Source of the DNA: an uncultured Alphaproteobacteria bacterium
GTDB taxonomy: Bacteria > Pseudomonadota > Alphaproteobacteria > HIMB59 > GCA-002718135
DNA: 64,000 nt
Assembly: GCA_902595425.1 (NCBI GenBank)
Contig: CACJPV010000001.1
Location: forward strand, 62,001-126,000
Direction: 5' to 3'
This document shows positions 14,862 through 62,144 of this stretch, in pieces. Both the position numbers and the translations under genes were made by a program. Within the stretch, counting starts at the first letter, position 1, and every line of letters starts with the position of its first letter. Under the pieces are notes generated by a model. The model ran no database searches and was not told the origin of the DNA. It saw only the letters and a program-made list of their open reading frames with translations.

Positions 14862-14880
14862 TGTTTCAAGCTTTGAAACA
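14862..14880. promoter_or_regulatory. TGTTTC-N7-GAAACA operator candidate, copy 1
   Basis: Sequence TGTTTCAAGCTTTGAAACA: an 8-bp inverted repeat around a 3-base centre. It lies 65-83 bases upstream of the FAD oxidoreductase start and 2 bases past the iclR stop, so it most likely controls the FAD/GS/mgs operon. The same 19-bp pattern recurs at 20794 and, with one mismatch, at 62126. KdgR, an IclR-family regulator, uses related half-sites (TGAAACA/TGTTTCA), so the adjacent IclR protein is the natural candidate to bind it. Confidence 0.68.
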
Positions 14881-14882
14881 TA

Positions 14883-15644
14883 CTAATTTTCTTTCAGTTT
14901 ATTTGAAATTAATTTAGCAGTTTCTCTTACCTTATGTGATAAATGAGGAATGGATTTAATATTTATACTTCCTTTTGTTCCTGAAATTGCAATACCTGCA
15001 ATTGCTCTGTTTTGAATATCCATAATAGGTGCGCCGATTCCATAAACATAATCAAATGTCTCTGCCTCATTTACGCTAAAGCCATTTTTTCTCACTTTAT
15101 CTAAATTTGCATATAATTTATCAATAGATGTAATTGTATTAGCAGTATGCTTATGAAGAGTATAACTTTTATATATTTCTTTAAGTTCATCTCTTGATTT
15201 AAAAGCAAGAATAGCCTTTCCTAATGCACAACTATGCGCGTCCATTCTCATTCTATACGCTCTTGGAGCGTTCTCTCCTAAAGGGTCTACTTTATCACAA
15301 TAAACAATATGGGGGCCCTCTAAGACAGCTAGGTACGTAATATGATTTGTATCATAAGATAACTTTTTTATATGATCAAAGCACAAGGTTGTTAGAGTTT
15401 TAAGAAAATCTGATTTATCTCCAAATTCAAAAATTTTATGTCCTAATGAATATAAATTATTAGAAGTATCTTTAAAAATATATCCAAGGCTTGTTAAATA
15501 TGTAAGAATTCTAAATGCTGTTGCTCTATCTAATTTTGTTATAAAAGATACCTGACTAGCTTTAAGTGGTTTTGGTGATTTTCCAACACATTCAATTATT
15601 GCAAGAGCTTTCTTAATCGATCCACTTAAATAGTTTCGAGTCAT
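14883..15644 (-). CDS. IclR-family transcriptional regulator
   Basis: A 253-residue regulator with an N-terminal winged helix-turn-helix (about residues 6-65; LDRATAFRILTYLTSLGYI is the recognition region) and the C-terminal IclR effector domain (DAHSCALGKAILAF, GFSVNEAETFDYVYGIGAPI). I moved the start to the ATG at 15644, because the upstream frame encodes an A/T-derived hydrophobic stretch unlike any IclR leader. It lies directly upstream of the FAD/GS/mgs operon with the TGTTTC-N7-GAAACA repeat in between, and is divergent from a choline-kinase-like gene. The inducer is unknown; a methylated amine or a glutamyl derivative would fit. Confidence 0.88.
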   Translation of the reverse strand: MTRNYLSGSIKKALAIIECVGKSPKPLKASQVSFITKLDRATAFRILTYLTSLGYIFKDTSNNLYSLGHKIFEFGDKSDFLKTLTTLCFDHIKKLSYDTNHITYLAVLEGPHIVYCDKVDPLGENAPRAYRMRMDAHSCALGKAILAFKSRDELKEIYKSYTLHKHTANTITSIDKLYANLDKVRKNGFSVNEAETFDYVYGIGAPIMDIQNRAIAGIAISGTKGSINIKSIPHLSHKVRETAKLISNKLKEN

Positions 15645-15718
15645 AATAAAATTGTAAATAAAATATACATGATTAATTGAAAATAATTTATTATAAAATA
15701 AAATATATAAAAAAATGT

Positions 15719-16582
15719 ATGGATAAAAAAAACTTAGAATTAATTTCTTCAATAAGTTTTTGGGAGAATGAAATTGAAATTACGCCCATAAAAGGCGGAA
15801 TAACAAATCAAAATTTTCTAGTAACTGATAATTCAAAAAAGTATTTTGTAAGAATTGGAAATGATATTCCAGAACATTTAGTTTTTAGAGCAAATGAAGT
15901 TCAAGCTAGTATCGCTGCATCAAAAATTGGTGTTAGTCCAGATTTATTATTTTATAACAAATCAATTCAAATTTTTAAGTACGTTGAAGGATTAACTTTC
16001 AATTCTGAAAATATTAAAAAAAATCTTGATGAAATAATTAAACTTTTAAAAAAAGTACACAACTCAATACCTGAAAAATTAATTGGCCAATCAGTAATTT
16101 TTTGGGTTTTTCATGTCATTAGAAATTATAAAAAATTTTTAGATGAAAATTCAAGTGTATATATTAAAATTTTACCCGATCTTTTAAACAAAGCACAAAA
16201 ACTCGAAGAAAAATCTTCACCTTTTGAAATTGTATTTGGTCATAATGATCTCCTTCCTGCCAATTTTATACAAAACGATCAGCAGTTATGGTTGATAGAT
16301 TGGGAGTATGCTGGTTTTAATACACCATTATTTGATCTTGGTGGACTTGCATCAAATAATGAGTTTAGTGAAAATGAGGAAATATTTTTACTTGAAAACT
16401 ACTTTGAAAAAAAATTATCTTCGGAATTAAGTGAGAAATATAGAGCAGTAAAATGTGCTTCTTTATTAAGAGAAACTATGTGGAGCATGGTATCTGAAAT
16501 AACTTCAAACATAGATTTTGATTACAAGACTTACACTAATGAGAATTTAATAAAATTTGATAAAGCAATGAAAGAGATTTAA
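15719..16582 (+). CDS. choline/ethanolamine kinase-like phosphotransferase (APH fold)
   Basis: A 287-residue aminoglycoside-phosphotransferase-fold kinase. The catalytic loop is FGHNDLLPANFI (Asp of the HxD-type motif, then Asn) and the metal site is LIDWEYAGFNTPLFDLG, both as in choline kinases. The start at 15719 (MDKKNLELIS) is preferred over an in-frame ATG 42 bases upstream, which would add a lysine- and isoleucine-rich leader lying in the promoter area of the divergent iclR gene. It is followed by the TMAO demethylase gene in the same direction. It could phosphorylate choline or another alkylamine alcohol; related kinases also act on thiamine or sugars. Confidence 0.78.
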   Translation: MDKKNLELISSISFWENEIEITPIKGGITNQNFLVTDNSKKYFVRIGNDIPEHLVFRANEVQASIAASKIGVSPDLLFYNKSIQIFKYVEGLTFNSENIKKNLDEIIKLLKKVHNSIPEKLIGQSVIFWVFHVIRNYKKFLDENSSVYIKILPDLLNKAQKLEEKSSPFEIVFGHNDLLPANFIQNDQQLWLIDWEYAGFNTPLFDLGGLASNNEFSENEEIFLLENYFEKKLSSELSEKYRAVKCASLLRETMWSMVSEITSNIDFDYKTYTNENLIKFDKAMKEI

Positions 16583-16662
16583 AATAAATTGAAGTTTGTT
16601 CTAGAAAGATTAATATAAATTAGTTTTTTATAATAAAAATTGAAAAAAAAAATTAAACTAAA

Positions 16663-19020
16663 GTGAATATTGATATTGATAAATACCCAGTGAGAAGATC
16701 AAATCCAATAGTTGTTGGATCATATGGGTTGCCAAAAGATACTGAAAGATATGTTATTAAAGGTCAAGGGTTAATTGGAATTGATCTAGATCAAGGTGAT
16801 GTTTTATTTTTAAAAAATTTAGAGGGTAATCAAGTATGTGAAATTACGGTTTTTGATCATAATGGCAACAATAATCAAAAAATTATAGGCAAAGGGTCTG
16901 ATATAGAAAACTCTTATCTTAAAAAAGTTTTAAAGTTAAGTTCTGATAAATTATTTTTAATTCAAAAACTTCAAAATAAAAAAATTAATTTAGATCAATT
17001 TTCATCATCATTAATTTTTAATGAAGTTTCTAAAAGAAATGATAGTGAAAAAATTTTGATCCATGAAAACTGTTTTACTGTTCTCGCATGTCCAGGAGAG
17101 AATATGATTGTAGGTGATCAAAACCCACCAACTGACATAGAAGTTATAGTCAAAAGAGCTAATCCAAAAAATAATAAATTAGAGAGAATTTTACCAGATC
17201 CATTGGCAACTCCAAAAGAGGAAATACTAATTAAGGATAGCTCTGCGAGTGCTTATGAAATTAAAAAAGGCGACTTTATTCAAGTAATCGATTTATACGG
17301 AAGACAATGCTCTGATTTTATGGCATTTGATAGTAATGCTCTTCAAACAGGACAAGAGCTTGCAATTGATACTACAGCTACTAGAGCTATTTTAGGTGGC
17401 GCTTATGCAATGCCAGGATTGCATTCAAAATATTTTGATAAAAATCTAGAACCATTAGTTGAGGTTGTTCAAGACACTATTGGTCGTCACGATACATTTG
17501 GTACTGCATGCACAAGAAAATTGTATGAAGATCAAGGGTATTTTGGACACATAAACTGTTCTGATAACTTTAACTATGCCCTCGATAAATTCGGCGTAGA
17601 AAAAAGAAATGGGTGGGCAGCTTTAAACCTTTTTTTTAATACAGGAATTGATGCAAATAACGTAATATTTTCTGATATGCCTTGGTCAAGACCAGGTGAC
17701 TATGTTTTGTTTCAAGCGCAAAAAGATCTTGTATGCGTATCATCTTCCTGCCCTGATGATATTGATACAGCAAATGACTGGAACCCCACAGATATATACG
17801 TTAGAGTTTATTCAGAAAAAAACAAATTTTCTAAATCAATTGGATATAGAAAAAATGCAGGAAGTGATTTTATGTTAACAAAAGAAACTGGTTTTCATTC
17901 AAGAACATCAAAATTAACAAACGATATGATGGATTCTTCAGGATTTTGGATACCTAATAAATATAATAATTACGGAACAATAAAAGAATACACAGAATGC
18001 AGAAACAATGTCGTGATGATGGATCTTTCTTCACTCAGAAAATTTGAAGTACTTGGTCCTGATGCGGAGGAACTTTTGAATGTAGCCTTAACAAGAAATA
18101 TAAAAAAACTTGCAGTTGGGCAAGTGGTGTATACAGCGATGTGTTACGAAAATGGAACGATGATTGATGATGGAACACTCTATAAATTAGGTGATCATAA
18201 TTTTAGATGGATTTGTGGAAGTGATTATTCTGGTGAATGGCTTACACAGCTAAGTGAAGAATTAAAACTTCATGCAAACATTAAATCTTCAACAGATCAT
18301 CTTCATAATATTTCTGTACAAGGTCCAAATAGTAGAAAAGTTCTCTCTAAAATTATATGGACACCGCCGGCACATCCGAATGTTAAAAGTTTAGAATGGT
18401 TTCACTTTACAATCAGTAGAATTGGTGATCATACTGGAATTCCAATCATGTTATCTAGAACTGGGTATACTGGTGAGCTTGGCTATGAAATATATTGTCA
18501 TCCAACCGATGCTCCTAAAGTTTGGGATGCTGTTTGGGAAGCTGGTCAAGAATTTAAAATTTCTCCAATGGGGTTTGAAGCTCTAGATATGCTTAGAATT
18601 GAAGCAGGCTTAATTTTAGGCGGAAATGAATTTAGTGATGAAACTGATCCGTTTGAAGCAGGAATTAGTTTTACTGTTCCTCTAAAATCTAAAGAGCAAA
18701 ATTTCATTGGCAAAGAAGCATTAATAGAGAGAAAAGCTCACCCTCATAGAAAATTAGTTGGTTTAGAAATTGATGGTAACGAAAAAGCTAATCATGGAGA
18801 TTGTGTACACTCGGGAAGAGCACAAGTTGGTATCATTACTAGTGGCACCATGTCTCCCACGTTAAATAAAAATATTGCATTATGTCGAGTTGACATACGC
18901 TCATCGGAAATAGGGACAGAATTAGAAATTGGAAAATTAGATGGTCATCAAAAAAGAATTTCAGCGAAAGTAGTTAGTTTTCCTTTTTATGACCCCACAA
19001 AGAGTAGAGTAAGAACTTAA
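16663..19020 (+). CDS. tdm: trimethylamine N-oxide demethylase (Tdm)
   Basis: A 785-residue two-domain protein: an N-terminal DUF1989-type zinc domain (to about 390) and a C-terminal GcvT-like tetrahydrofolate-binding domain (about 400-785; TMIDDGTLYKLG, SRTGYTGELGYEIY). This combination is that of TMAO demethylase, which splits TMAO to dimethylamine and formaldehyde, the latter captured by THF. Cys283 (GTACTRK), Cys299 (HINCSD) and Cys363 (SSSCPDD) are spaced 16 and 64 apart, the same as the zinc cysteines I recall for Methylocella Tdm (263/279/343). The start is GTG with no clear Shine-Dalgarno sequence. tmm and tmoXWV lie just downstream, strongly supporting the call. Confidence 0.93.
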   Translation: MNIDIDKYPVRRSNPIVVGSYGLPKDTERYVIKGQGLIGIDLDQGDVLFLKNLEGNQVCEITVFDHNGNNNQKIIGKGSDIENSYLKKVLKLSSDKLFLIQKLQNKKINLDQFSSSLIFNEVSKRNDSEKILIHENCFTVLACPGENMIVGDQNPPTDIEVIVKRANPKNNKLERILPDPLATPKEEILIKDSSASAYEIKKGDFIQVIDLYGRQCSDFMAFDSNALQTGQELAIDTTATRAILGGAYAMPGLHSKYFDKNLEPLVEVVQDTIGRHDTFGTACTRKLYEDQGYFGHINCSDNFNYALDKFGVEKRNGWAALNLFFNTGIDANNVIFSDMPWSRPGDYVLFQAQKDLVCVSSSCPDDIDTANDWNPTDIYVRVYSEKNKFSKSIGYRKNAGSDFMLTKETGFHSRTSKLTNDMMDSSGFWIPNKYNNYGTIKEYTECRNNVVMMDLSSLRKFEVLGPDAEELLNVALTRNIKKLAVGQVVYTAMCYENGTMIDDGTLYKLGDHNFRWICGSDYSGEWLTQLSEELKLHANIKSSTDHLHNISVQGPNSRKVLSKIIWTPPAHPNVKSLEWFHFTISRIGDHTGIPIMLSRTGYTGELGYEIYCHPTDAPKVWDAVWEAGQEFKISPMGFEALDMLRIEAGLILGGNEFSDETDPFEAGISFTVPLKSKEQNFIGKEALIERKAHPHRKLVGLEIDGNEKANHGDCVHSGRAQVGIITSGTMSPTLNKNIALCRVDIRSSEIGTELEIGKLDGHQKRISAKVVSFPFYDPTKSRVRT

Positions 19021-19027
19021 ATAAATA

Positions 19028-19396
19028 ATGCCAAGCTTATCTGAATTAAGAAAAGTCGCTAACATTAATACCCTTGATTGGGAACTTTTAGAAGACGAGT
19101 GCAAAGATCAGAAAGGTGATATTTGGTGGTACAATCTTAGTTATAATTTTGAAACTGGTGAAGGATCCTATCTTTATAAGATGGGTCCGAATACTGTATC
19201 TAAAGCACACTCCCACACAGGCCCAGAAGAATTTTTTATTTTGGAAGGAGATTTAAAAGACTCAGATGGTTTCACATACAAAAAAGGTGATTTTGTTCAT
19301 TTGGGACCAGATTCAAAACACTTTAGCACTACGGTCTCAGGATGTACAAGTGTTGTGACGCATAGAGGTAAATTTATTTATACCGACGATAATTAA
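19028..19396 (+). CDS. small cupin protein next to tdm
   Basis: A 122-residue single-domain cupin. The first motif is KAHSHTGPEEFFILEGDL (metal ligands His, His, Glu) and the second is GDFVHLGPDSKHFSTT with a further His. It lies 7 bases after tdm, so the two are very likely translated together, and it ends 1 base from the convergent tmm gene. The fold is close to ChrR-type cupins, but no anti-sigma part is present. A role in sensing or handling formaldehyde or a metal for Tdm is possible but unproven. Confidence 0.78.
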   Translation: MPSLSELRKVANINTLDWELLEDECKDQKGDIWWYNLSYNFETGEGSYLYKMGPNTVSKAHSHTGPEEFFILEGDLKDSDGFTYKKGDFVHLGPDSKHFSTTVSGCTSVVTHRGKFIYTDDN

Positions 19397-19397
19397 T

Positions 19398-20732
19398 TTA
19401 TTTTGATTTCATAAAAGTATCCATAGAGTCATCCATTGCTTTTGCCCATGGCGTATGATGAATTGGAGCCACTGTCCCAGTTACTGCAGAAGAAAAAGAT
19501 CTATTTCTATATGTTAGAATATCTTCTTCTTTGTGATGCTCCCATTCTTTAAAGTGTTTTCTTATTAACTCAAAGTCAATTGCGGGATAATCAGAAGCAG
19601 TGTGTAATTCTTTAGTATATTCAGTTTGAAAGTCTATCATTTGAATTGGATCTTCCAAACTTTCCTCCTCTGTAACCCATTTTTTTATATCTGCTTCAAT
19701 TTCAGCGTCACTTGGCAATTTAATTTTGCCCATAATTACATCTCGTGCATACCAAGCTTGACAATCAAACATATTGAATGTGTGGAATTGATCTTGCATT
19801 CCTAGATACATTAACTGATGATTATCTTGCCAAATAATTCCTTTGAAAAGTTTGGGAGGGTATAAACGATTGCCTGTTTTTAACTTCAAACTGTCATCAA
19901 GAAATGGAAAATGATGCAAATAGCCACTGCATAAAATGATAGCATCAGCATTTTGTTCATTTCCATCTTTAAAAATCGCTTTGCCACCCTCCAACCTATC
20001 TAAGTAATGAACTTCTTTCATACCATTTGGCCATTTAAAGCCCATAGGATTATTTCTATAACCAATAGTTACAGATTTCGCTCCGTATTTGTAACATTGA
20101 AGTGCTATATCTTCGGCAGAATAACTACTTCCTAATACAACAACATCCTTATTTCTAAATTCTTCAGCATCTCTAAAATCATGACCATGTAAAATTCTTC
20201 CAGGAAAAGATTTCATTCCTTTATATTCAGGAATATATGGTACTGAAAAGTGACCATTTGAAACAACTACATAATCAAAATTTTCTTTAGTTATTTTATT
20301 TTCTTTTTTATTTATTGATGTAACTTCAAACTGACTATCATTGAAATTAACATTTGTTACAGTAGTACTAAATTTAATATATTTTTTTAAGTTACCATTT
20401 TTTGCTCTACCTAATATATAATCGTATAAGACTTCTCTTGGTGGAAAAGATGGGATCGGTTGTTTAAAATGTTCATCAAACGAATAATCTGCAAACTCCA
20501 AACATTCTTTTGGTCCATTTGACCATAGGTAACGATACATACTATTTGGAACGGGATCTCCAAATTGATCAGATCCAGTTCTCCAACTATAATTCCATAA
20601 ACCTCCCCAATCCTCTTGTTTCTCATAACAAACAATTTCAGGTATACTTTGACCTTTTTCTTCAGCTTGTTGAAAAGCTCTGAGCATTGATAAGCCACAT
20701 GGGCCTGAACCTATAATTGCAACTTTAGTCAT
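19398..20732 (-). CDS. tmm: trimethylamine monooxygenase (Tmm)
   Basis: A 444-residue flavin-containing monooxygenase that oxidises TMA to TMAO with NADPH and O2. The FAD site is IIGSGPCGLSM at the N-terminus, the FMO fingerprint is FPGRILHGHDF, and the NADPH site is VVLGSSYSAEDIA. The start at 20732 is fixed by GGAGG 5-9 bases upstream; the longer open frame would run into the divergent tmoX promoter. The length and the neighbours tdm and tmoXWV match bacterial Tmm. The shared intergenic region with tmoX carries an inverted repeat at 20794-20812, so both are probably induced together. Confidence 0.93.
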   Translation of the reverse strand: MTKVAIIGSGPCGLSMLRAFQQAEEKGQSIPEIVCYEKQEDWGGLWNYSWRTGSDQFGDPVPNSMYRYLWSNGPKECLEFADYSFDEHFKQPIPSFPPREVLYDYILGRAKNGNLKKYIKFSTTVTNVNFNDSQFEVTSINKKENKITKENFDYVVVSNGHFSVPYIPEYKGMKSFPGRILHGHDFRDAEEFRNKDVVVLGSSYSAEDIALQCYKYGAKSVTIGYRNNPMGFKWPNGMKEVHYLDRLEGGKAIFKDGNEQNADAIILCSGYLHHFPFLDDSLKLKTGNRLYPPKLFKGIIWQDNHQLMYLGMQDQFHTFNMFDCQAWYARDVIMGKIKLPSDAEIEADIKKWVTEEESLEDPIQMIDFQTEYTKELHTASDYPAIDFELIRKHFKEWEHHKEEDILTYRNRSFSSAVTGTVAPIHHTPWAKAMDDSMDTFMKSK

Positions 20733-20793
20733 ATATCCTCCTGAAATTAAGTTATAGTATTCAATAAAAAACGAAATTTTAAAAGTAAAAAGT

Positions 20794-20812
20794 TGTTTCA
20801 AGATAAGAAACA
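20794..20812. promoter_or_regulatory. TGTTTC-N7-GAAACA operator candidate, copy 2
   Basis: Sequence TGTTTCAAGATAAGAAACA, with outer half-sites identical to copy 1 at 14862 and the same 7-base spacing. It lies in the divergent spacer, 62-80 bases upstream of the tmm start and 72-90 bases upstream of the tmoX start, so one bound regulator could control both directions. The IclR protein at 14883-15644 is the suggested ligand. Confidence 0.68.
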
Positions 20813-20883
20813 CATAACTGAAATGTTTACAGATGAGATTAACAGTAATGGTAGATTTAAATCTAAACCTAACGGGAGGTAAT

Positions 20884-21834
20884 ATGGTAAAATTAATCAG
20901 AGGATTAGTGCTTACTGCTATAGTGGTTTCTTTCACAGTTTTTGGAAGTATTGCTAAAGCTGCTGATCCAATTAGAATACCAGTTCTAAACTGGTCAAGT
21001 CAAATAGTTATGGCAAATGTTATGGCTCAAGTTTTTGAGGAAATGGGCCACACAGTTGAACTAGTACCAGCTGAATCAGCTTCACGATATGAAGCAGTTA
21101 GAATTGGTGACTTACACGTAGCACATGAAACATGGGAGTCTACAATGGCTCTTCCTTTTTATGCTGCAATGGACAAAGGTGGTTTGATCGATGCAGGTAG
21201 TCATAACCTAATAACTTTTGAGGAAATGGGTGTACCTAACTGGGTAATTGAAGAAGGTCTATGTCCTGGTTTACCTAATTGGGAAGCATTGAAGTCACCA
21301 GAATGTGCAGCTAATTTTGCTACAGCTGATTCTGATGGAAAAGGTCGTTGGTTAGAAGGACCTTATGAATGGCATACTGAAGTTATGCCAAACAGACTTA
21401 AAGGTCTTGGAATTGATGATTTATGGACTGTTAAATTTGCTGGTAGTGCAGATGCATTATGGGCAGAATTAAAAGCAGCAAAAGCAGAAGGTCGTGGAAC
21501 AGTTATATTTAACTGGTCTCCAAACTTCACCGATGCTGCAGGATTTACATTTATTGATTTTCCACCATACTTTGAAGGATGTAGATTGGAAAATGGAGGA
21601 ACTCTTGAAACTACAGGTTGTGGTTCTCCAAAAGGTTGGCTGAAAAAAGCTGCTCATATCAAATTTCCTATTACACATCCAGATGCATATAAATTTTATA
21701 CAAAAATGTCATTTACAGCTCCACAAATTGGTCTGATGGCAGATTTAGTTGATAGTCAAGGCATGGATCATGCTGCCGCTGCAACTGAATTTATTGCTCA
21801 ACATAGAGATCTTATTGATCTTTGGAAAAATTAA
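20884..21834 (+). CDS. tmoX: TMAO/glycine betaine ABC transporter substrate-binding protein (TmoX)
   Basis: A 316-residue periplasmic binding protein of the ProX/OpuAC class with a Sec signal peptide (hydrophobic core to about residue 22, cleavage near AKAADP). Tryptophans that could form the aromatic cage for a trimethylated nitrogen are seen in PVLNWSSQ, AHETWEST and PNWVIEEG. I took the ATG at 20884 because it follows GGGAGG with ideal spacing; an upstream in-frame ATG lacks one. Divergence from tmm and the following ATPase and fused permease give the tmoXWV order known for TMAO import. A strong terminator follows directly. Choline or betaine binding cannot be excluded. Confidence 0.9.
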   Translation: MVKLIRGLVLTAIVVSFTVFGSIAKAADPIRIPVLNWSSQIVMANVMAQVFEEMGHTVELVPAESASRYEAVRIGDLHVAHETWESTMALPFYAAMDKGGLIDAGSHNLITFEEMGVPNWVIEEGLCPGLPNWEALKSPECAANFATADSDGKGRWLEGPYEWHTEVMPNRLKGLGIDDLWTVKFAGSADALWAELKAAKAEGRGTVIFNWSPNFTDAAGFTFIDFPPYFEGCRLENGGTLETTGCGSPKGWLKKAAHIKFPITHPDAYKFYTKMSFTAPQIGLMADLVDSQGMDHAAAATEFIAQHRDLIDLWKN

Positions 21835-21850
21835 AAATTTAATTAACTAT

Positions 21851-21882
21851 AAAATCCCCCTATAAAAAGGGGGATTTTTTTA
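21851..21882 (+). terminator. intrinsic terminator between tmoX and tmoW
   Basis: A perfect 10-bp stem (AAAATCCCCC and complement) with an 8-base loop and a run of seven T. It begins 16 bases after the tmoX stop and 35 bases before tmoW. As the downstream genes have no obvious separate promoter, it probably works as a leaky terminator that makes binding protein more abundant than ATPase and permease. Confidence 0.85.
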
Positions 21883-21917
21883 TTTTATTTAGCTTTAAAA
21901 TAGAATATTGTTCAAAA

Positions 21918-22958
21918 ATGTCTGAATCATTAGATAATTCTAATAATACCCCAGTAATTAAGTGCGAATCTGTTTATAAAATTTTTGGAAATAATGCTTC
22001 AAAACTTTTAGAAGACTCAAATGGTCAAGTTGATGCAAAAACTTTTCAAGAAGCTGGCTGTATTGTTGGAGTAAATAATGCATCCTTTGGAGTTAATAAA
22101 GGAGAAATGATGGTTGTCATGGGATTGTCAGGCTCAGGAAAATCAACGTTACTTCGATGTATATCAAAACTCACAGATGCCACTGCAGGAAAAATATTTA
22201 TTGATGGTGAAGATTTATTGGCAATGAATAATAAACAACTAATTGAATTGCGTAGAAACAAAATGGGTATGGTCTTTCAAAGTTTTGCACTTTTACCTCA
22301 TAAAACTGTAATTGAAAACATTGCCTTTCCTCTTCAAATTAAAGGTACTAACACCAGAGAAAGTATGGCAAAAGCTCTTGAAATGGTTGAGTTAGTAGGT
22401 TTAAAGGGAAGAGAAAATTATTTTCCAAGAGAACTTTCAGGGGGACAGCAACAAAGAGTAGGAATTGCACGTTCATTAGCAGTGGAACCTGACATTTGGT
22501 TTTTAGACGAACCGTTTTCTGCACTTGATCCACTTATACGAAAAGAAATGCAGGATGAATTCTTAAGGTTGCAAGGAGTTTTAAATAAAACAATTATGTT
22601 TGTTACTCATGATTTTGATGAGGCTCTTCGTTTAGCAGATCGTATTGCAATTATGAAAGATGGAATAATTGAACAATTAGATACACCTGATAATATTGTT
22701 TTGAATCCAGCAACTGAATATGTAAAAAAATTTACAGAAGATGTGCCTCGAGAAAAAGTTCTTAAAATTGAATCTATTATGGATGCATATGACCCCAATA
22801 ATTCAAGTTCTACTAAAGTTTCTAAGGATGCAATTATCGAAACATTAGCTGAGTCAATTCTTAATAGTAAAGAAATACTAACTGTAGTTAATAAAAATAA
22901 TGAAGTTGTCGGTTCTTTAAATCCATCAAAAGTAATTAAAGTAATTTTTGGAAAATAA
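21918..22958 (+). CDS. tmoW: TMAO/betaine ABC transporter ATP-binding protein (TmoW)
   Basis: A 346-residue ABC ATPase of the ProV/OpuAA class. Walker A is GLSGSGKSTL (about residue 70), the Q-loop is VFQSFALLPH, the signature is LSGGQQQRVGIARSL, Walker B is IWFLDEPFSALD, and the switch His is in FVTHDFDEA. As in ProV, an N-terminal extension precedes the Walker A motif. A C-terminal CBS-like tail (about 285-346) probably senses ionic strength or regulates transport. It is followed after 12 bases by the permease gene. Confidence 0.92.
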   Translation: MSESLDNSNNTPVIKCESVYKIFGNNASKLLEDSNGQVDAKTFQEAGCIVGVNNASFGVNKGEMMVVMGLSGSGKSTLLRCISKLTDATAGKIFIDGEDLLAMNNKQLIELRRNKMGMVFQSFALLPHKTVIENIAFPLQIKGTNTRESMAKALEMVELVGLKGRENYFPRELSGGQQQRVGIARSLAVEPDIWFLDEPFSALDPLIRKEMQDEFLRLQGVLNKTIMFVTHDFDEALRLADRIAIMKDGIIEQLDTPDNIVLNPATEYVKKFTEDVPREKVLKIESIMDAYDPNNSSSTKVSKDAIIETLAESILNSKEILTVVNKNNEVVGSLNPSKVIKVIFGK

Positions 22959-22970
22959 TTTTAATAAATA

Positions 22971-25028: not shown

Positions 25029-25043
25029 ATAAATTATAATTAA

Positions 25044-50400: not shown

Positions 50401-50402
50401 TT

Positions 50403-52314: not shown

Positions 52315-52345
52315 TTATTAAAGGTAATTATTTGAGAGTAACATA

Positions 52346-54054: not shown

Positions 54055-54078
54055 ATCTGTTTCTATTAATTAAGAATT

Positions 54079-55344: not shown

Positions 55345-55410
55345 TTTGTCCTCCCTGTAAATGACTATAAAGATGTTATCAGCTTTTAAGAGTAAGTAAA
55401 AGAAAAATGA

Positions 55411-55737
55411 TTATTTTGGCGGTTCTAATTGACTAAAATAAAGAGCTAAAGAGCCAATTTGTTCATCATTAAGTCTCCCAGCGATCATTCTCATAACAGG
55501 ATTCTCCATCTCTTTTGCTCTGTAAGCAAGCATTAATGCAACGAAAACCTCTGCGTCCATACCATGAATTGCAGGAATACCTTCACTTGCTCCTTTCTGT
55601 TGATGACATGACACACATTCAGCACCTAGATATTCTCCATATTCAATATCACCCATTGCAATAATTTGTTGTTCATCTGAAAATGCAAATTTGCAAAAAA
55701 ATGTTAGTAAAAAAATAACAAATAATAATTTTTTCAT
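55411..55737 (-). CDS. small cytochrome c (SoxE/FccA-like)
   Basis: A 108-residue secreted cytochrome with a signal peptide (hydrophobic to about residue 18, cleavage near AFS) and one heme site CVSCH at 41-45; the distal Met is probably in MRMIAGRLN. It lies 66 bases upstream of soxF on the same strand, which fits the electron acceptor of flavocytochrome c sulfide dehydrogenase. A general c-type carrier is the alternative. Confidence 0.83.
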   Translation of the reverse strand: MKKLLFVIFLLTFFCKFAFSDEQQIIAMGDIEYGEYLGAECVSCHQQKGASEGIPAIHGMDAEVFVALMLAYRAKEMENPVMRMIAGRLNDEQIGSLALYFSQLEPPK

Positions 55738-55802
55738 ATTTATAATTTAAAACAATTCAGCTTTGATTTGTCAATGAGTTAAATATACTAATTCACAATA
55801 TA

Positions 55803-56978
55803 TTAGTTTACTATATGTAAATCTCTTGAAAGATTACATAAAAGCTCACATCCATTCTCTGTCACATTAATTGACTCACTAACTTCCAAACCCCAAGTAT
55901 CCATCCACATTCCTGCAATCATATGAAACGTAACATTGGGTTGCAATATCGTCATATCGTTTTTTCTGATAGACATAGTGTGCTCTCCCCAATCAGGAGG
56001 ATAACCAACTCCTATAGCATAACCAAGGCGCGAGTCTTTTTCGATACCATTTTTTTCTAAGACTGACCAAAAAGCAACAGCAACATCGTGAGCTGTTTTA
56101 CCAGGTTTAATAGTAGAAATTGCTTGCTCCACTCCCTCATTGGTTATTTTCATGGTGTCTGAAATTTTTGAATCAGGCTTTCCACAATAAACAGTTCTAG
56201 ATAAGGGACAGTGGTATCGATGCTTAACACCCGCTAACTCAATAATGGTACCCTCATTATTATTAAACAAATTATCTTTGGGTGTTAAATGTGAGGCTGA
56301 TGCAGAAACTCCACTTGCTAAAATAGTTGTTAAACCTGCATATTCTCCACCTATATTAATTTCTTCATTTCCACCAATAAGACTATTTTGGATTTTTCCA
56401 GCAACATAACTCTGTTTAACTCCAGGCTTAATATTTTCGTATGCTGTCATCATTCCAGTTTCAACAAGTTTAGCTCCTTCTTTCATATAATTTATTTCAT
56501 TTTCAGACTTAATTAATCTTATCCAATTCACTAAAAGTGTTGCATCACTAAAATTAACATTAGGACAGGTTGATGTTAATCTGTAATGATTCTCTGCAGT
56601 GTAATAATAAGCATCCATTTCAACCCCTATATTTTTGTTCGCCCAATTATTTTCATGAATAAAAGATGATACAAAATCATAAGGATGTGTTGGTGGTGCT
56701 TGAATAAAATCCTCAGGATAATAAATAATATTTTTATCTTGAAGGTAAGTTGTTACCTTTGCTCCTTTAGAGTCTTGTCTCCTTCCAAACCATATTGGTT
56801 CACTCAAGTCTAAAGCCACAATTATTCCTTGTGGAACATAAAAAGACCAACCATCATAACCAGTTAAATAATTCATATTTGATGGATCGGTCAGGATGAT
56901 TACATCCATATTCTTTTGAAACATTATATTTTTTACTTTTGATAATCTGGATAAATATTCTTCTTTAGTAAAAATCAT
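55803..56978 (-). CDS. doeA: ectoine hydrolase (DoeA/EutD type)
   Basis: A 391-residue creatinase-fold protein. The N-terminal TDPSNMNYLTGYDGWSFYVP and PIWFGRRQDSKGAKVT segments match ectoine hydrolase closely. The C-terminal domain lacks the metal ligands of M24 peptidases (ELAGVKHRYHCPLSRT instead of DxG and DxxR), as in creatinase-like metal-free members. The enzyme opens ectoine to acetyl-diaminobutyrate. No doeB, doeC or ectoine uptake gene is in the window. It lies upstream of the sox sulfur genes and 42 bases downstream of the sarcosine-oxidase-type operon on the same strand. Confidence 0.85.
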   Translation of the reverse strand: MIFTKEEYLSRLSKVKNIMFQKNMDVIILTDPSNMNYLTGYDGWSFYVPQGIIVALDLSEPIWFGRRQDSKGAKVTTYLQDKNIIYYPEDFIQAPPTHPYDFVSSFIHENNWANKNIGVEMDAYYYTAENHYRLTSTCPNVNFSDATLLVNWIRLIKSENEINYMKEGAKLVETGMMTAYENIKPGVKQSYVAGKIQNSLIGGNEEINIGGEYAGLTTILASGVSASASHLTPKDNLFNNNEGTIIELAGVKHRYHCPLSRTVYCGKPDSKISDTMKITNEGVEQAISTIKPGKTAHDVAVAFWSVLEKNGIEKDSRLGYAIGVGYPPDWGEHTMSIRKNDMTILQPNVTFHMIAGMWMDTWGLEVSESINVTENGCELLCNLSRDLHIVN

Positions 56979-57020
56979 AAATAAATGTTTAGTATGGAAA
57001 AAGAATAATGTCTAATAACT

Positions 57021-57587
57021 TTAACTGTCTATTACTTCATAACCAAATTGAGAAGCTGTCTCGAGCAAAATTTCCCAAATAGATAAAGCGAAACCTCTAG
57101 GAATTAAAAGTCTAAATTCTTTCTCACTAAGTCTAAAAAGTTTGACACTTACATGATGAATTGCTGAACTTGCTGATGAATGTATTGGAAAATTATCTAA
57201 TCGTAGATCAAGAGGTAAATGTCTATTAAGTAATATGTCACTTTTTTCACCTTTAATAGTAATTGAAGTAAAAGCGTGAGATAGCTCTAGTGATGTTCCT
57301 AAATTCTCTGGCAAATTAATAGTACTACCTAATAGCAACCATTTAGAAGGCTCCATTCTCCATAGTGAATTGTTGTTTAGTATTTTTCCTCTATTAAAAT
57401 CAATATTTTTTTGAACTCCTAATTGATCAGAAAAAAACTTTTCTACATTTGGTATTTCATCAGGCCATGCAGCAATTTGCTGAATTATAAGGTTCCGGTT
57501 TTCAAAGAGTATAATTTCAATTTTATCTTCAAAAGGATATTTTCCAATATTATACTTTTCTATAATTGCTGAATTTCTATTAAGCAT
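57021..57587 (-). CDS. sarcosine oxidase gamma-type subunit (SoxG/MgdD)
   Basis: A 188-residue protein related to the gamma subunit of heterotetrameric sarcosine oxidase, with LWRMEPSKWLLLG, the LELSHAFTSITIKGE stretch and the C-terminal RGFALSIWEILLETA. It shares the GcvT-like fold but has no cofactor. I took the ATG at 57587; the longer frame starts with TTG at 57611. The start overlaps the stop of the alpha gene by 8 bases. In N-methylglutamate dehydrogenase the matching subunit is MgdD. Confidence 0.85.
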   Translation of the reverse strand: MLNRNSAIIEKYNIGKYPFEDKIEIILFENRNLIIQQIAAWPDEIPNVEKFFSDQLGVQKNIDFNRGKILNNNSLWRMEPSKWLLLGSTINLPENLGTSLELSHAFTSITIKGEKSDILLNRHLPLDLRLDNFPIHSSASSAIHHVSVKLFRLSEKEFRLLIPRGFALSIWEILLETASQFGYEVIDS

Positions 57588-60537
57588 ACATTCTCTTACC
57601 TTCTGGATCAATCATATGAGGTGATACAACTTTTATTTCCATTTGTTTGTTTCTTACTGGATCTGCACCTATGAGTGTTATATCTTTCCACTTTTCAAGA
57701 CCTCCTCTAACAAACCCTATTCCAATCCAATGGCCTAACTCTGGCGAATGCGTAACTGACGTTATACGACCAACGCCCTGCCCTTTAATATTATTTTTTT
57801 CACAAACAATTGTGCCAGCATTAAAAGTTTCTTTTTCATTTATAGGGAAAAAACCAACTAGCATTTCTCTGTCATCCGCACTTAGAACTCCTCTTTTTCT
57901 CATAGCACTTCCAATGTAGGATTTTTTTGTTGATGCCATCTTTCCCAAACCAGCATCATCAATTGTTACTCTTCCATCAAGCTCAGCAGCAGTTACATGT
58001 CCTTTTTCAACCCTTAAAGCTCCTAAAGCCTCAAGACCATATAAACAACCATCATATTTTTGAGCACTTTCCCATAATAAGTCCATCATTCCATGAGCAT
58101 AATCAGACTCAATATACATCTCGTAAGCTAACTCTCCTGAGAAACTTATTCTAACAACTCTACATGGTGTGCCATCTTTGAGTTTAGTTTGTAGTACGCC
58201 CATGAAAGGTAAATTATCATTTGTAATTTCACTTGGATCAAAAACACATTCATTCAAAACATCTCGAGATTTTGGACCAGCGATTGCGGCACCTGCCCAT
58301 TGTTCAGAGACGCTTGTCACATTCACTTTTAGATCTGTCCATCTAGTTTGGAGTAATTCTTCTAACCATGACATCACTTTTGCAGCAGCTGCAGTTGATG
58401 TAGTCATAAAGTATTCATTTTCACCAAGTCTCCATGACGTACCATCATCCATCACAATACCATCATCGCGTAACATGATTCCATAACGTGCTTTACCAAT
58501 TGGAAGTTTAGCAAAGGGGTTTGTGTAAATACGATTTACGAGTTCTGTTGCATCAGGACCTTGAATAGCAATTTTACCCAGTGATGTAACATCACAAATA
58601 CCAACTGTTTTTCTAACAATTGTTGTCTCCCTAATATATGAATCACTTAATGTTTCATTTTTTTTAGGGTAGTACCAAGGTCTTTGATAAAGGCCAACCT
58701 CAATCATTTTTGCTCCATGATCAATATTCCATTGATGCATTGGTGTTACTCTTAAAGGCCTGAAATGCTTTCCAACATTTCTTCCTGTTAAAGCACCTAT
58801 TGGAACTGGTGTATAGGGTGGTCGAAAAACTGTTGTTCCAACTTGTGGAATAGTTTTATCTAGTTGTTCCGCCATAAGAGATAAACCAATTATATTGCCC
58901 ATTTTGCCTTGGTCGTTTGCCATTCCTAGAGTGGTGTATCTTTTTAAATGCTCAACAGAGATAAACCCTTCTCTGTGTGCTAACCTTACATCCTCAGCAG
59001 TTACATCATGTTGAAAGTCGACAAAACTTTTTGATGGAAATTTATTTGATTTAACTTCAAATAAAGGTTCTATCGGATTTGACCACCCCCCTACTGATGG
59101 AAAAGAAATTTCTTTTTTGTGTATGCCAAAAGTATTCATTGCTTCATTGGCACCAACAAAGCCTGACTCTATGCAATTCTTTTCATCCCAAATACCTTTT
59201 GCCGATCCTACAACAGAAATATTCTCTTTAATTTCTCCTGGAATGAAACATAAGTTTTCTTGATTCCATGTAGGTTTTATACCTCGGTGAGACACAAGAT
59301 TAACAATTGGTGACCAGCCTCCTGACATTAAAACTTGATCACAAATAATTGTATTTTTATTTGATAGATCTGTTGTTTTACAAATATCAATACCGTCAAT
59401 TTTTTTTCTACCATTAATACTGAATGGCAGAGTATTTAAATGAAGATCAATGTCTTTGGATAAATCATGATTGACATTTTCTCTTGAGTCTAAAATTGTA
59501 ACTTTTGAGCCTGCCTCATGCAATTCTTTAGCTGTTTGATATACAGAGTCATTATTTGTTGAGATGACAATATTATTTCCGGTTAAAACACCATATCTAT
59601 TTAAATAATGTTTAGATGCGTTTACAGTCATTGCTCCAGGTAAATCATTGTTATTAAATGCAATATGTCTTTCAAGAGCACCACTTGCTACAATGATATG
59701 TTTTGCTCTAATTGTCCAAAAACGTTGGCGAGGCAAATTATTATGAGGATTAGGCACATGATCAGTTACTCTTTCCAACGCTCCAATAATAGTATTATCA
59801 TAAATACCAAAGGCTGTTGTTCTGGGCATGACTCTAATACCACTGCTTTTTAGTTGAGTATTTAAAAGGTAAGGATCAAAATCTTTTTGAGATAAACTAT
59901 TTCCTCCAAGTAAAGAGTCCTGTTCAATTAAAATAACATCTAATTTATTATTAGCTATTTCTTGAGCTGCAGCAATACCTGCAGGACCAGAACCAATAAC
60001 AAGTACATCACAAAAATCATTCGCATGTTCGTAGCTATCTGGATCAGGTTCTCTAGAAGCTTTACCCATGCCGGCTGCTTTTCGAATAATTTTCTCAAAA
60101 ATCATCCAAATTCCAGTGCCCTTACCCCATTCAAATGGCGGTAGACCCATAAATGTTTTATAATAAAAACCAGCTGCAAAAAAACGGCTTAAATAATTAT
60201 TTACACCTCCAAAATCAAAATTAACATTCGGAAATGCATTTTGACCTGAGGCGTTTAATCCAGAATAAAGTTCTTGTGTTGTTGCACGAACATTCGGATC
60301 TCTGCTACTTCCAGATCCAACAGTTACTAAAGCGCCTGACTCTTCAACGCCACAAGACATTACTCCTCGTGGACGATGATATTTAAAACTTCTACCAACT
60401 ATTCTAACATCATTTGCTAATAGTGCAGAGGCTAGAGAGTCACCTTCATATCCAAAATATTCTTTATTATCCCAATTAAAGCCCAGCACTTTTTCTCTGT
60501 TAATTTTACCGTAGTTTTCTTTTCTTAGCGATGTCAT
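57580..60537 (-). CDS. sarcosine oxidase alpha-type subunit (SoxA/MgdC)
   Basis: A 985-residue protein with three parts: an N-terminal ferredoxin-like domain (about 15-110; GRSFKYHRPRGVMSCG), an FAD/NAD-binding domain starting with VIGSGPAGIAAAQEIA near residue 180, and a C-terminal aminomethyltransferase domain (about 600-985; GIMLRDDGIVMDDGTSWRLG, FSGELAYEMY). It would move the methyl group, oxidised on the beta subunit, onto tetrahydrofolate. The length is normal for the family. The name SoxA here means sarcosine oxidase, not the sulfur cytochrome. Sarcosine or N-methylglutamate are the candidate substrates. Confidence 0.9.
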   Translation of the reverse strand: MTSLRKENYGKINREKVLGFNWDNKEYFGYEGDSLASALLANDVRIVGRSFKYHRPRGVMSCGVEESGALVTVGSGSSRDPNVRATTQELYSGLNASGQNAFPNVNFDFGGVNNYLSRFFAAGFYYKTFMGLPPFEWGKGTGIWMIFEKIIRKAAGMGKASREPDPDSYEHANDFCDVLVIGSGPAGIAAAQEIANNKLDVILIEQDSLLGGNSLSQKDFDPYLLNTQLKSSGIRVMPRTTAFGIYDNTIIGALERVTDHVPNPHNNLPRQRFWTIRAKHIIVASGALERHIAFNNNDLPGAMTVNASKHYLNRYGVLTGNNIVISTNNDSVYQTAKELHEAGSKVTILDSRENVNHDLSKDIDLHLNTLPFSINGRKKIDGIDICKTTDLSNKNTIICDQVLMSGGWSPIVNLVSHRGIKPTWNQENLCFIPGEIKENISVVGSAKGIWDEKNCIESGFVGANEAMNTFGIHKKEISFPSVGGWSNPIEPLFEVKSNKFPSKSFVDFQHDVTAEDVRLAHREGFISVEHLKRYTTLGMANDQGKMGNIIGLSLMAEQLDKTIPQVGTTVFRPPYTPVPIGALTGRNVGKHFRPLRVTPMHQWNIDHGAKMIEVGLYQRPWYYPKKNETLSDSYIRETTIVRKTVGICDVTSLGKIAIQGPDATELVNRIYTNPFAKLPIGKARYGIMLRDDGIVMDDGTSWRLGENEYFMTTSTAAAAKVMSWLEELLQTRWTDLKVNVTSVSEQWAGAAIAGPKSRDVLNECVFDPSEITNDNLPFMGVLQTKLKDGTPCRVVRISFSGELAYEMYIESDYAHGMMDLLWESAQKYDGCLYGLEALGALRVEKGHVTAAELDGRVTIDDAGLGKMASTKKSYIGSAMRKRGVLSADDREMLVGFFPINEKETFNAGTIVCEKNNIKGQGVGRITSVTHSPELGHWIGIGFVRGGLEKWKDITLIGADPVRNKQMEIKVVSPHMIDPEGKRMYA

Positions 60538-60818
60538 GATTTATTTTTTGTAATTTTTTCAATTTGTGGATGGCATGCTTTTACACTTTTTATTTCATGC
60601 GTAATCGTAGACCTCTCTACCTCTAACCATAGTCTACAACCATTGGTATGATGCCAAGTTTCTTTTTGCATACCTCTTATATTTTCGCGAAAGAAAATAG
60701 CCTTCGTCCACTCTGATACAGGTGCATCTAGTGCTGGATATTTTATAGAAGCATCACCACCGTAAGTGAACTCACTATGATCTCTTTCACCACAATATGG
60801 ACATTTAATTCTAATCAT
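60534..60818 (-). CDS. sarcosine oxidase delta-type subunit (SoxD/MgdB)
   Basis: A 94-residue zinc-binding subunit. The start MIRIKCPYCGERDHSEF gives the CPYC metal site and is followed by TYGGDAS, both standard for this family; His and Cys in HTNGCRLWL complete the site. The chosen ATG (60818) lies 1 base after the stop of the beta gene, while the longer frame overlaps that gene. It overlaps the alpha gene start by four bases, so all four subunits form one operon. Confidence 0.9.
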   Translation of the reverse strand: MIRIKCPYCGERDHSEFTYGGDASIKYPALDAPVSEWTKAIFFRENIRGMQKETWHHTNGCRLWLEVERSTITHEIKSVKACHPQIEKITKNKS

Positions 60819-60819
60819 A

Positions 60820-62085
60820 TCAACCGTGCAACTTTGGATCTGGACCAGCGCCACGCTCATCAATATTAATTCCTTTTTCAAATCTCTCTAAATTATGATT
60901 CTGTACATGTTTATGAGGTTGCTCATTAGCTATTAAATCAGCAAAATACCAGCCAGAGGCAGGGCTTGCTTTAAAGCCTCCATAATTCCATCCAGCATTA
61001 AGATATAAATTTGATAATGGCGTTTTGCATATGAAAAAAGAACCGTCCATAGACATATCCATCACACCCGCCCAATGTCGTAAAAGACGTATTCTTCCTA
61101 AACAAGGCATGATAGCCATAGCAGCCTCAGCACAATCTTGAACAATTGGCAGATTCCCTCTTTGGGCATACGACTTATACCAATCTAAATCTCCACCAAA
61201 AACCATACTACCCTTGTCTGATTGAGAAATATAAAAATGAGCTCCACCAACACCGTATACTACAACATGATCTAATAGAGGTTTAATAGACTCTGTAACA
61301 AAAGCTTGGAGTTTATGTGACTCAATTGGTAAATTTCCAAGACCTGCCATCTGCCATAAAACAGATGTATGACCTGCGACTGCAAATCCTACTTTTTTAG
61401 CTTTAATGGTTCCTCTTGATGTTTCTAAACTCTCAATATTATTTTGAGATCTCTTAACACCTGTTACTTCACAATTTTGTAATATATCAACGCCTAAACT
61501 ATCTGCAGCTCGTGCATAACCCCATACTGCTGAGTCATGTCTAGCATTACCAGCTCTTCTTTGTACTGCAGCACCCATTATTGGAAATCTTGCATCCTCA
61601 TAATTTAAATGTGGGATATTTTTTTTAAGAGTTTCTAAGTCCCATAATTCTGCATCCGTTCCATGTAAACGCATAATATTATATCTTCTTGCAGCTCCGT
61701 CTCTTGCACCTGGACTGTGAAAAAGCGAAACATGCGCTCTTTGACTAAACATCACATTATAATTTAAGTCATGACTTAAATCTTCCCATAGCTTTAATGA
61801 ATGCTCATAAAATTCATGATTACCTGGCATCATATAATTCGAGCGAACTATTGTTGTGTTTCGTCCAGCATTTCCACCGCCTATCCATCCTTTTTCAAGA
61901 ACTGCTATATTTTTTTTATTATGATTTTTTGCTAAATAGTAAGCAGTGGCTAAGCCATGAAGCCCTCCTCCTACTATGATGATATCATATTCTTTTTTTG
62001 GTACAGGATCACGCCATTGTCTGTCCCAACTTTTTTGGCCAGTAAAACCATTTTTAAATACATTCCAGGCATTAAAACGTGTCAT
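60820..62085 (-). CDS. sarcosine oxidase beta-type subunit (SoxB/MgdA)
   Basis: A 421-residue FAD enzyme of the DAO family. The dinucleotide motif is IIIVGGGLHGLATAYYLA, and GRNTTIVRSNYMMPGN is the family stretch near residue 74. His183 in ARHDSAVWGYAR corresponds to the residue that carries covalent FMN in heterotetrameric sarcosine oxidase. It oxidises the N-methyl substrate. It is the first gene of a beta-delta-alpha-gamma operon with an inverted repeat 41-59 bases upstream that matches the methylamine operators, favouring N-methylglutamate over sarcosine. This preference is inference. Confidence 0.9.
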   Translation of the reverse strand: MTRFNAWNVFKNGFTGQKSWDRQWRDPVPKKEYDIIIVGGGLHGLATAYYLAKNHNKKNIAVLEKGWIGGGNAGRNTTIVRSNYMMPGNHEFYEHSLKLWEDLSHDLNYNVMFSQRAHVSLFHSPGARDGAARRYNIMRLHGTDAELWDLETLKKNIPHLNYEDARFPIMGAAVQRRAGNARHDSAVWGYARAADSLGVDILQNCEVTGVKRSQNNIESLETSRGTIKAKKVGFAVAGHTSVLWQMAGLGNLPIESHKLQAFVTESIKPLLDHVVVYGVGGAHFYISQSDKGSMVFGGDLDWYKSYAQRGNLPIVQDCAEAAMAIMPCLGRIRLLRHWAGVMDMSMDGSFFICKTPLSNLYLNAGWNYGGFKASPASGWYFADLIANEQPHKHVQNHNLERFEKGINIDERGAGPDPKLHG

Positions 62086-62125
62086 AAAAAATCCTATATC
62101 TTCAAATATTTTGACCTAAATAAAA

Positions 62126-62144
62126 AGTTTCAGATCTTGAAACA
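62126..62144. promoter_or_regulatory. TGTTTC-N7-GAAACA operator candidate, copy 3
   Basis: Sequence AGTTTCAGATCTTGAAACA: the consensus of copies 1 and 2 with one outer mismatch (A for T) and the same 7-base spacing. It lies 41-59 bases upstream of the sarcosine-oxidase-type beta gene and 94-112 bases upstream of the divergent Ldh2-family gene. It links this operon to the tmm/tmoX and mgs promoters. Confidence 0.62.

Follow-up and report, generated by a model that had tools for sequence, protein, structure and literature searches.

Predicted operators of an IclR-family protein, a probable regulator of methylated-amine use, in a SAR11-type bacterium

Introduction

What regulates the use of trimethylamine and methylamine in SAR11-type bacteria? 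The question is raised by a 64,000-nucleotide stretch of DNA from an uncultured alphaproteobacterium (GenBank assembly GCA_902595425.1, contig CACJPV010000001.1, forward-strand positions 62,001 to 126,000), which we call the window and whose host is treated here as a SAR11-type (Pelagibacterales) bacterium. An initial annotation had pointed to three copies of a 19-bp inverted repeat in front of genes for methylated-amine use, one of them beside a gene for an IclR-type protein (iclR), and had proposed that this protein controls trimethylamine oxidation, import of trimethylamine N-oxide (TMAO), methylamine ligation and a final oxidation together. We compared the repeat and the gene across the window's own genome and related genomes. 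The three repeats are very probably operators of the IclR protein, which would be a pathway-specific regulator of methylated-amine use.

SAR11 bacteria have been described as the most abundant heterotrophs, or the most abundant oligotrophic plankton, in the oceans, and methylated compounds and TMAO are among the substrates they are said to use (PMC3160333, PMC8918994). In strain HTCC1062, transcripts of tmoX, tdm and gmaS rise on TMAO (PMC8918994). Sun et al. (2011) give SAR11 two soxBDAG operons, presumably one each for sarcosine and N-methylglutamate, and leave the assignment unclear (PMC3160333). No regulator of the methylated-amine pathway in SAR11 was found in the open-licence literature of PubMed Central. 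A regulator, an operator and a list of targets are now proposed for the use of trimethylamine and methylamine, a nitrogen and carbon supply, in SAR11.

Results

Three copies of an inverted repeat in the window

The three copies were found in the sequence as described. Copies 1 and 2 are exact matches to TGTTTC-N7-GAAACA and copy 3 has one mismatch (Table 1). They had been placed 40 to 90 bases upstream of starts, and the measured distances are 64 bp to the gene for an FAD-dependent oxidoreductase (FAD gene below), 61 bp to tmm, 71 bp to tmoX and 40 bp to soxB. Copy 1 does lie 2 bases from iclR, beyond the stop codon at its 3′ end, and it belongs to the promoter region of the next operon, FAD-GS-mgsABC (GS, glutamine-synthetase-like gene), not to that of iclR. 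No other intergenic copies had been noticed; outside genes, the window held none at up to 2 mismatches in 14 positions and one at 3 mismatches (weak candidate in Table 1).

The genome to which the window belongs is a draft of 1,494,543 bases (84% complete, 33% G+C). The reversed pattern served as control in genome-wide scans, and shuffled sequence for the window and for upstream stretches. Only 2 exact matches to the 12 positions were present in this genome, both inside the window, and with up to 1 mismatch in 12 there were 12 matches against 8 controls. The window itself had 11 matches at up to 2 mismatches in 12, against 6.1 expected from shuffles (largest 13); such weak matches mean little because their number is near the shuffle range. 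Across relatives, the motif resolved to the 14-position form TGTTTCA-N5-TGAAACA, with about 21.6 bits over 51 distinct sites, a value inflated by the selection of sites at up to 3 mismatches. Its outer 14 positions are kept, whereas the inner 5 bases drift and are nearly free.

In the 14-position form, the genome had 34 matches at up to 2 mismatches, against 14 controls, and 4 at up to 1 mismatch, 3 of them the copies in the window. Strong matches at unrelated positions of the genome, which would have spoken against a regulon, were thus few. The fourth match (C1:268530) was rejected as a target: it is located inside an aminotransferase-like gene, in its 3′ end, and is found again in another genome of the set (G057) without a gene that is transcribed outward from it.

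The regulator gene encodes an IclR-family protein

The protein encoded beside copy 1 scored above the cut-offs of both IclR domains, PF09339 (HTH_IclR; 35.3 bits, cut-off 22) and PF01614 (IclR_C; 107.4 bits, cut-off 24), and its closest solved chain is an IclR regulator, 1mkm_A (E = 2.3e-28). Its top NCBIfam match was TIGR02431 (PcaR/PcaU/PobR; E = 3.3e-34), at 118.3 bits against a cut-off of 284.75. Scores were likewise under the cut-offs for KdgR (NF011671; 110.6 bits, cut-off 275) and BhcR (NF045644; 109.3 bits, cut-off 350). Judged by these profile scores, the protein is a member of the IclR family and is not KdgR, BhcR or PcaR. An AraC-type helix-turn-helix domain (PF12833) was not found in the window's own genome, which is 84% complete, and was present in 9 of 14 control genomes.

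The site follows iclR in the window's family

iclR was present in 23 of 110 genomes of the window's family. In all 21 iclR-bearing genomes of the window's genus, an exact match to the 12 positions adjoins iclR at its 3′ end, in the FAD-GS-mgsABC promoter. Among 22 scored FAD promoters, from 21 family genomes and one extra metagenome-assembled genome (MAG; L091, from outside the 110-genome set and included in the FAD and tmm counts), 21 had a site with at most 1 mismatch in 14 and one (G105) a site with 2; shuffles gave 0.0 and 0.05. The FAD genes of G007 (off contig) and G004 (split match) were unscored, and both genomes have the exact site beside iclR. A site with up to 2 mismatches lay upstream of tmm in 17 of 21 scored cases (0.03 expected). 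In the tmm-tmoX spacer, a site with up to 3 mismatches was seen in 18 of the 19 iclR-bearing loci that have a complete tmm start (18 family genomes and the extra MAG). The spacer site is also present in G070, whose contig ends short of iclR.

The soxB promoter is the most telling case, because soxB is far from iclR (operator 3 and soxBDAG are unlinked to it, 47 kb away in the window) and also occurs in genomes without iclR. A site with up to 2 mismatches preceded soxB in 17 of 21 genomes with iclR but only 4 of 56 without it (shuffle expectation 0.0 and 0.05). These sites lie 38-49 bp before the start, and those of the 17 iclR-bearing genomes represent two types of promoter, with 11 sites at 39-40 bp and 6 at 49 bp. 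Fisher's test gave p = 6e-10; neither this value nor the p = 5e-9 obtained with G056 and G006 counted as lacking iclR is corrected for shared ancestry. These two genomes were set apart as "iclR unknown" (the G056 contig ends inside GS, and G006 is 64% complete). In this scoring, we dropped soxB upstream stretches shorter than 60 nt, FAD and tmm stretches shorter than 100 nt, matches starting beyond the first 6 residues and soxB matches below 75% identity; no soxB of this type was available for scoring in G007 and G005.

Genome-wide counts agree in direction. The 23 iclR-bearing genomes held 27 exact 12-position matches against 2 reversed-pattern controls, while the 87 genomes without iclR held 17 against 32. 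Of those 27, 21 were in the FAD promoter, 2 in the tmm-tmoX spacer, 3 before soxB, and the last one was within a D-Ala ligase gene (L158). With up to 1 mismatch to the 14-position form, the 22 iclR-bearing genomes other than the window's own had 69 matches against 12 controls, many of the extra ones unplaced.

One genome of another genus (G109, 93% complete) has retained FAD, GS, mgsABC, tdm, tmm and the beginning of tmoX on a single stretch, with FAD and tdm back to back and no iclR between them. Neither of its two spacers had a site at up to 3 mismatches, and no IclR_C protein was found in it; iclR may have been lost there or may never have been present. In the window's family, the operator is tied to the presence of the regulator gene, with exceptions, and conserved at orthologous promoters, with G001 and G109 as exceptions at tmm. 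The co-occurrence expected from the initial annotation was, in this family, largely borne out.

A second family repeats the pattern, but not cleanly

In another family of the same order, 38 of 52 genomes carry IclR homologues with 42-45% identity. In 10 loci fetched from this family, some of them near-identical, iclR again adjoins FAD-GS-mgsABC, and the site in the FAD promoter was exact in 8, with 1 mismatch in 1 and 2 mismatches in 1. Among the matches listed, 13 of 14 iclR-bearing genomes had a site with at most 1 mismatch next to iclR, the miss being G111. The spacer between tmm and a sox-type operon carried a site in three loci, exact in L222 and L241 and with one mismatch in L239, and the tmm proteins of all three scored over the NF058570 cut-off. 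The 52 genomes held 272 matches at up to 1 mismatch against 11 controls. Twenty stretches of this family were chosen by hand among the matches listed, and of the 22 sites in them, 6 are intragenic. On sequence comparison, the pattern of site and iclR is repeated in this distant lineage, but not cleanly, as weighed in the Discussion.

Some loci of this family (L179-L185 and L191-L193) carry a second, divergent set of mgsA-, mgsB- and mgsC-like genes across iclR, with 33-54% identity to the window's set. A palindrome with at most 1 mismatch was seen at the start side of iclR in 5 of these 10 loci.

Which soxBDAG operon is marked by the operator

The regulon bears on which soxBDAG of SAR11 oxidises N-methylglutamate. 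In the window's clade, the strong operator occurs only on the soxBDAG copy that is not linked to fhs, the gene for formate-tetrahydrofolate ligase (confirmed by NCBIfam). A related palindrome, TATTTC-N7-GAAATA, lies 53-60 bp before the fhs-linked operon (sox2), for example at L153:4204-4222 (C1:223703-223721 in the window's own genome). With up to 1 mismatch, it preceded fhs in 10 of 10 scored genomes with iclR and 3 of 15 without it. In four clade-2 genomes, the fhs palindrome has only 1-2 mismatches in 14 to the amine operator, and both sox copies may be under the regulator. The distribution of the strong operator points to the copy not linked to fhs as the amine-pathway enzyme in the window's clade. 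This is a prediction and not a proof, because the fhs-linked copy bears the weaker, related palindrome.

Three further comparisons bear on this operon. The sox-type operon of the second family is about equally distant from the two copies in the window's family (57-59% versus 56-57%), and therefore gives no pointer to the N-methylglutamate dehydrogenase copy. Among the relatives without iclR, 56 had this soxB type and were scored, and the closest plasmid relatives of the window's soxB (77% and 76%) lie in other gene neighbourhoods. The role in the "final oxidation" that had been given to this oxidase is therefore putative.

A dehydrogenase gene at 62238 was considered as the true target of operator 3 and is unlikely to be so. 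In four second-clade loci that have more than 800 bases upstream (L065-L068), the site persists without a detected ldh2 (L069 and L070 were too short for this check).

Candidate further targets

Other sites of the second family, in one to three genomes each, precede genes for an N,N-dimethylformamidase, amt/glnT, an OpuAC protein, a BhcA-like aminotransferase, a TctC protein and a rhodopsin. The rhodopsin gene has a 1-mismatch site 57-62 bp upstream at L224:2713, L225:2674, L231:2136 and L159:2572. These belong to G123, G113 and G124 of the second family and to G004, an iclR-bearing genome of the window's family; the gene was called by PF01036 in L224, L231 and L159 and by its near-identical start in L225. 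An amine regulator and a light-driven pump may be under shared control. At L224:8910, a 1-mismatch site lies 40 bp before a two-gene N,N-dimethylformamidase-like operon (genes at 8969-11751; PF20254 on the large protein). An enzyme of this type would release dimethylamine.

The amt-glnT spacer is a weak candidate. The second-family genome G117 has a 1-mismatch site there. In the window's family, the best sites had 3 mismatches in the window's own genome, 2 in G061 and 3 in G056, and 4-6 in seven other spacers with a glnT start; 10 further fetched stretches had no usable start. The tdm promoter was rejected as a target: G066, G005 and G007 have 3-mismatch sites there and G105 has one that lies between tdm and iclR, none of them convincing.

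A wider reading, which we regard as possible but doubtful, is that of an old, order-wide regulon for methylated-amine and one-carbon metabolism under IclR, a non-homologous counterpart of the roseobacter regulator TmaR. Its targets in the second family would extend past amine oxidation and include N,N-dimethylformamidase, ammonium transport and glutamine synthetase III, a betaine-type ABC transporter, the BhcA-like aminotransferase and rhodopsin, and in the window's family the gain of an operator would mark the soxBDAG copy recruited as N-methylglutamate dehydrogenase. If this were true, a light-driven pump and amine use would be on one switch in the second family.

Gene content of the locus

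Along the forward axis, mgsC, mgsB, mgsA, the GS-like gene and the FAD gene (all on the minus strand) are followed by operator 1 and iclR (minus), then by a choline-kinase-like gene, tdm and a cupin gene (all plus), tmm (minus), operator 2, and tmoX with its ABC transporter (plus). The features are collected in Table 1. The one-carbon roles, and the mgs names of genes known by domain alone, are assumed.

Table 1. Predicted operators and genes of the window
Feature	Position	Strand	Sequence	Remark
Operator 1, predicted	14862-14880		TGTTTCAAGCTTTGAAACA	64 bp upstream of FAD-GS-mgsABC operon; 2 bp past iclR stop codon
Operator 2, predicted	20794-20812		TGTTTCAAGATAAGAAACA	central in divergent tmm-tmoX spacer
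Operator 3, predicted	62126-62144		AGTTTCAGATCTTGAAACA	40 bp upstream of soxB
Weak candidate operator	6419-6437			amt-glnT spacer; 3/14 mismatches
IclR-family regulator	14883-15644	-		only IclR_C protein found in own genome; proposed operator binder
FAD-dependent oxidoreductase, DAO family	13451-14797	-		first gene of operon, behind operator 1
Glutamine-synthetase-like, candidate gamma-glutamylmethylamide synthetase	11952-13436	-		role inferred from position
mgsA-like glutamine amidotransferase	10990-11931	-		name from domain and gene order
mgsB-like GXGXG protein	10160-11002	-		name from domain and gene order
mgsC-like glutamate synthase domain protein	8797-10146	-		name from domain and gene order
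tdm, TMAO demethylase	16663-19020	+		NF053776, over cut-off; in own genome, no good operator just before it
tmm, trimethylamine monooxygenase	19398-20732	-		NF058570, over cut-off
tmoX-like OpuAC substrate-binding protein	20884-21834	+
ABC transporter genes downstream of tmoX	21918-25028	+		21918-22958 proV/choline-type ATPase; second open reading frame 22971-25028, putative
soxB, heterotetrameric sarcosine-oxidase-type beta subunit	60820-62085	-		first gene behind operator 3
soxD-type subunit	60534-60881	-		Pfam over cut-off; NCBIfam 101.5 bits, cut-off 116.5
soxA-type subunit	57580-60537	-		NCBIfam 1146.9 bits, just under cut-off of 1164
soxG-position subunit	57021-57611	-		no family match; name from gene order

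The DAO-type FAD oxidoreductase is conserved in the second family with 52-56% identity, and no mgdABCD lies beside it in the window. The choline-kinase-like gene (15740-16582) between iclR and tdm had no match in the loci of G102, G030, G105 and G001, where iclR and tdm are neighbours. A creatinase/M24-peptidase-like gene (55803-56978) comes after the sox operon. On plasmids of Roseovarius and Aminobacter, this soxB type has a gene with the annotation Xaa-Pro peptidase family upstream of it.

Discussion

Proposed mechanism

The IclR protein, presumably as a dimer or tetramer, would read two TGTTTCA half-sites flanking a free 5-bp centre. Operator 1 would serve the methylamine-to-N-methylglutamate operon (FAD-GS-mgsABC), operator 2 the divergent promoters of tmm and the TMAO transporter, and operator 3 the unlinked sarcosine-oxidase-type operon.

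We lean, with some reserve, towards a protein that acts mainly as an activator, because the site ends 4-5 bp before a poor but conserved -35-like block that lies at a fixed distance from a -10-like block. In the FAD promoter of the window's family, a conserved block CTTTAAG lies 4-5 bp past the site, followed by TAAAATAAA at 23 nt, and most of the spacer drifts. In the second family, a TGTTTTT block comes after the site and CAAAAT at 27 nt. A promoter reading by -10/-35 consensus is ambiguous.

A protein that acts mainly as a repressor, released by a methylamine metabolite, is a serious though less probable alternative. Two elements of the window could be read as -35 boxes: TTGAAA, with which operator 1 ends (5 of 6 positions, 17-bp spacer to TATTAC), and CTGAAA at operator 3 (4 of 6, likewise with a 17-bp spacer). 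Repression of targets has been described for KdgR and PlaR, two members of the IclR family whose half-sites are related (PMC6958661). However, the TATTAC box is not conserved across relatives, and the conserved block 4-5 bp downstream would put the site upstream of the -35 region. G109, a single genome without iclR, has a perfect TATAAT in both upstream regions, with poor -35 matches, which fits activation only weakly. For BhcR, too, a potential palindrome lies upstream of the bhcA -35 region and activation was proposed there (PMC11323563).

As for the effector, a methylamine-derived metabolite such as gamma-glutamylmethylamide or N-methylglutamate is about an even guess. The signal is probably made in the methylamine-to-N-methylglutamate step, because that operon adjoins iclR in both families. 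In Ruegeria, the signal of TmaR is a catabolite of monomethylamine (PMC13390433), which for IclR is an analogy and not evidence.

Is the IclR protein the binder?

The palindromes could be real operators whose binder is some other factor, perhaps one with TATTTC-N7-GAAATA before fhs-sox2 among its sites, while iclR does something else. We consider this unlikely, but several observations favour it or otherwise weigh against control of all these promoters by IclR. In the second family, 14 of 52 genomes, in which iclR was not detected at E ≤ 1e-60, had 54 matches at up to 1 mismatch against 3 controls (G116, G126, G127, G131, G136, G137, G142, G145, G147, G151, G155, G156, G157 and G160), and two of the 14 are 92 and 94% complete. 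In G116, two sites lie 824 bases apart, which leaves about the room of one iclR gene; a more divergent iclR is possible there. Because of this recount in the second family, we slightly lowered our confidence in IclR as the binder and slightly raised that in another factor. TATTTC-N7-GAAATA also occurs at up to 1 mismatch before fhs in G051, G009 and G046, in which neither iclR nor an IclR_C protein was detected.

In the window's family, iclR is present in G001 without a tmm-tmoX site, and four iclR-bearing genomes had no soxB site within 2 mismatches (G001, with 3 mismatches, and G102, G105 and G033, with no site). The 4 genomes without iclR that were scored with a soxB site are of one sequence type and have a half-degenerate site in which the right half has decayed. 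iclR was not found in G056 and G006, which have good soxB sites and, if counted as lacking iclR, bring the fraction to 6 of 58. G061 has a second IclR_C protein. Absences of iclR rest on mostly incomplete genomes and are hence soft, and part of the co-occurrence is linkage because iclR and two of the three sites share one locus. Finally, tdm, the middle step of the pathway, has no good site upstream in the window's own genome.

On the other side, G051, G009 and G046 are only 74, 61 and 82% complete, and the fhs palindrome itself leans to iclR-bearing genomes. The strong TGTTTCA-N5-TGAAACA sites track iclR at the unlinked soxB promoter, are missing together with iclR in G109, and adjoin iclR in two families whose IclR proteins are only 42-45% identical. 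We therefore retain the IclR protein as the very probable binder. The claim of a single IclR regulon stands for most orthologous promoters in the window's family, and the second family repeats it but not cleanly. Its predicted scope covers the FAD-mgs, tmm-tmoX and soxB promoters.

That the repeats are RNA hairpins or terminators is very improbable. Copy 1 is a near-perfect inverted repeat directly past the iclR stop codon, but the remaining copies are in divergent spacers and the folding of the 51-nt stretches is ordinary (z = -1.0, -0.15 and -1.2). Chance matches in AT-rich DNA, suggested by the near-shuffle count of weak matches in the window, can be dismissed in view of the excess over reversed-pattern and shuffled controls and the conservation at orthologous positions.

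Comparison with known systems

The PcaR/PcaU/PobR group (TIGR02431) serves, by its description, the beta-ketoadipate pathway and not methylamine. BhcR comes from the alphaproteobacterium Paracoccus denitrificans. It resembles the window's protein as an IclR-family metabolic regulator with a potential palindrome upstream of a -35 region and a proposed activating role, and differs in serving glyoxylate assimilation (PMC11323563).

KdgR and PlaR share with it the IclR family and half-sites of the TGAAAC/GTTTCA type. The parallel with KdgR drawn in the initial annotation holds for these half-sites but not for their arrangement, nor for the KdgR profile score. In the KdgR consensus AAATGAAACAnTGTTTCATTT (PMC5559549) and the PlaR box ATnTGAAACnnnGTTCAnTT (PMC6958661), the half-sites stand in the reverse order and closer together; the order TGAAACA-n-TGTTTCA is not that of the repeat described here.

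The likeness of task is with TmaR, which together with TmoR is a published pathway regulator of Ruegeria pomeroyi DSS-3. TmaR serves as the single regulator of most of the trimethylamine pathway and binds the promoters of tmm, tdm, dmm, gmaS-mgs and mgd (PMC13390433). In the main text of that paper, "IclR", "motif" and "palindrom" do not occur, and "SAR11" occurs twice (introduction and references). TmaR is of the AraC type whereas the protein at 14883-15644 is of the IclR type, so the latter does not belong with TmaR. The same job appears to be done in SAR11 by a regulator that is not homologous to that of the roseobacters, a contrast that rests on TmaR. This suggests that unrelated regulators solved the same control problem in roseobacters and in SAR11.

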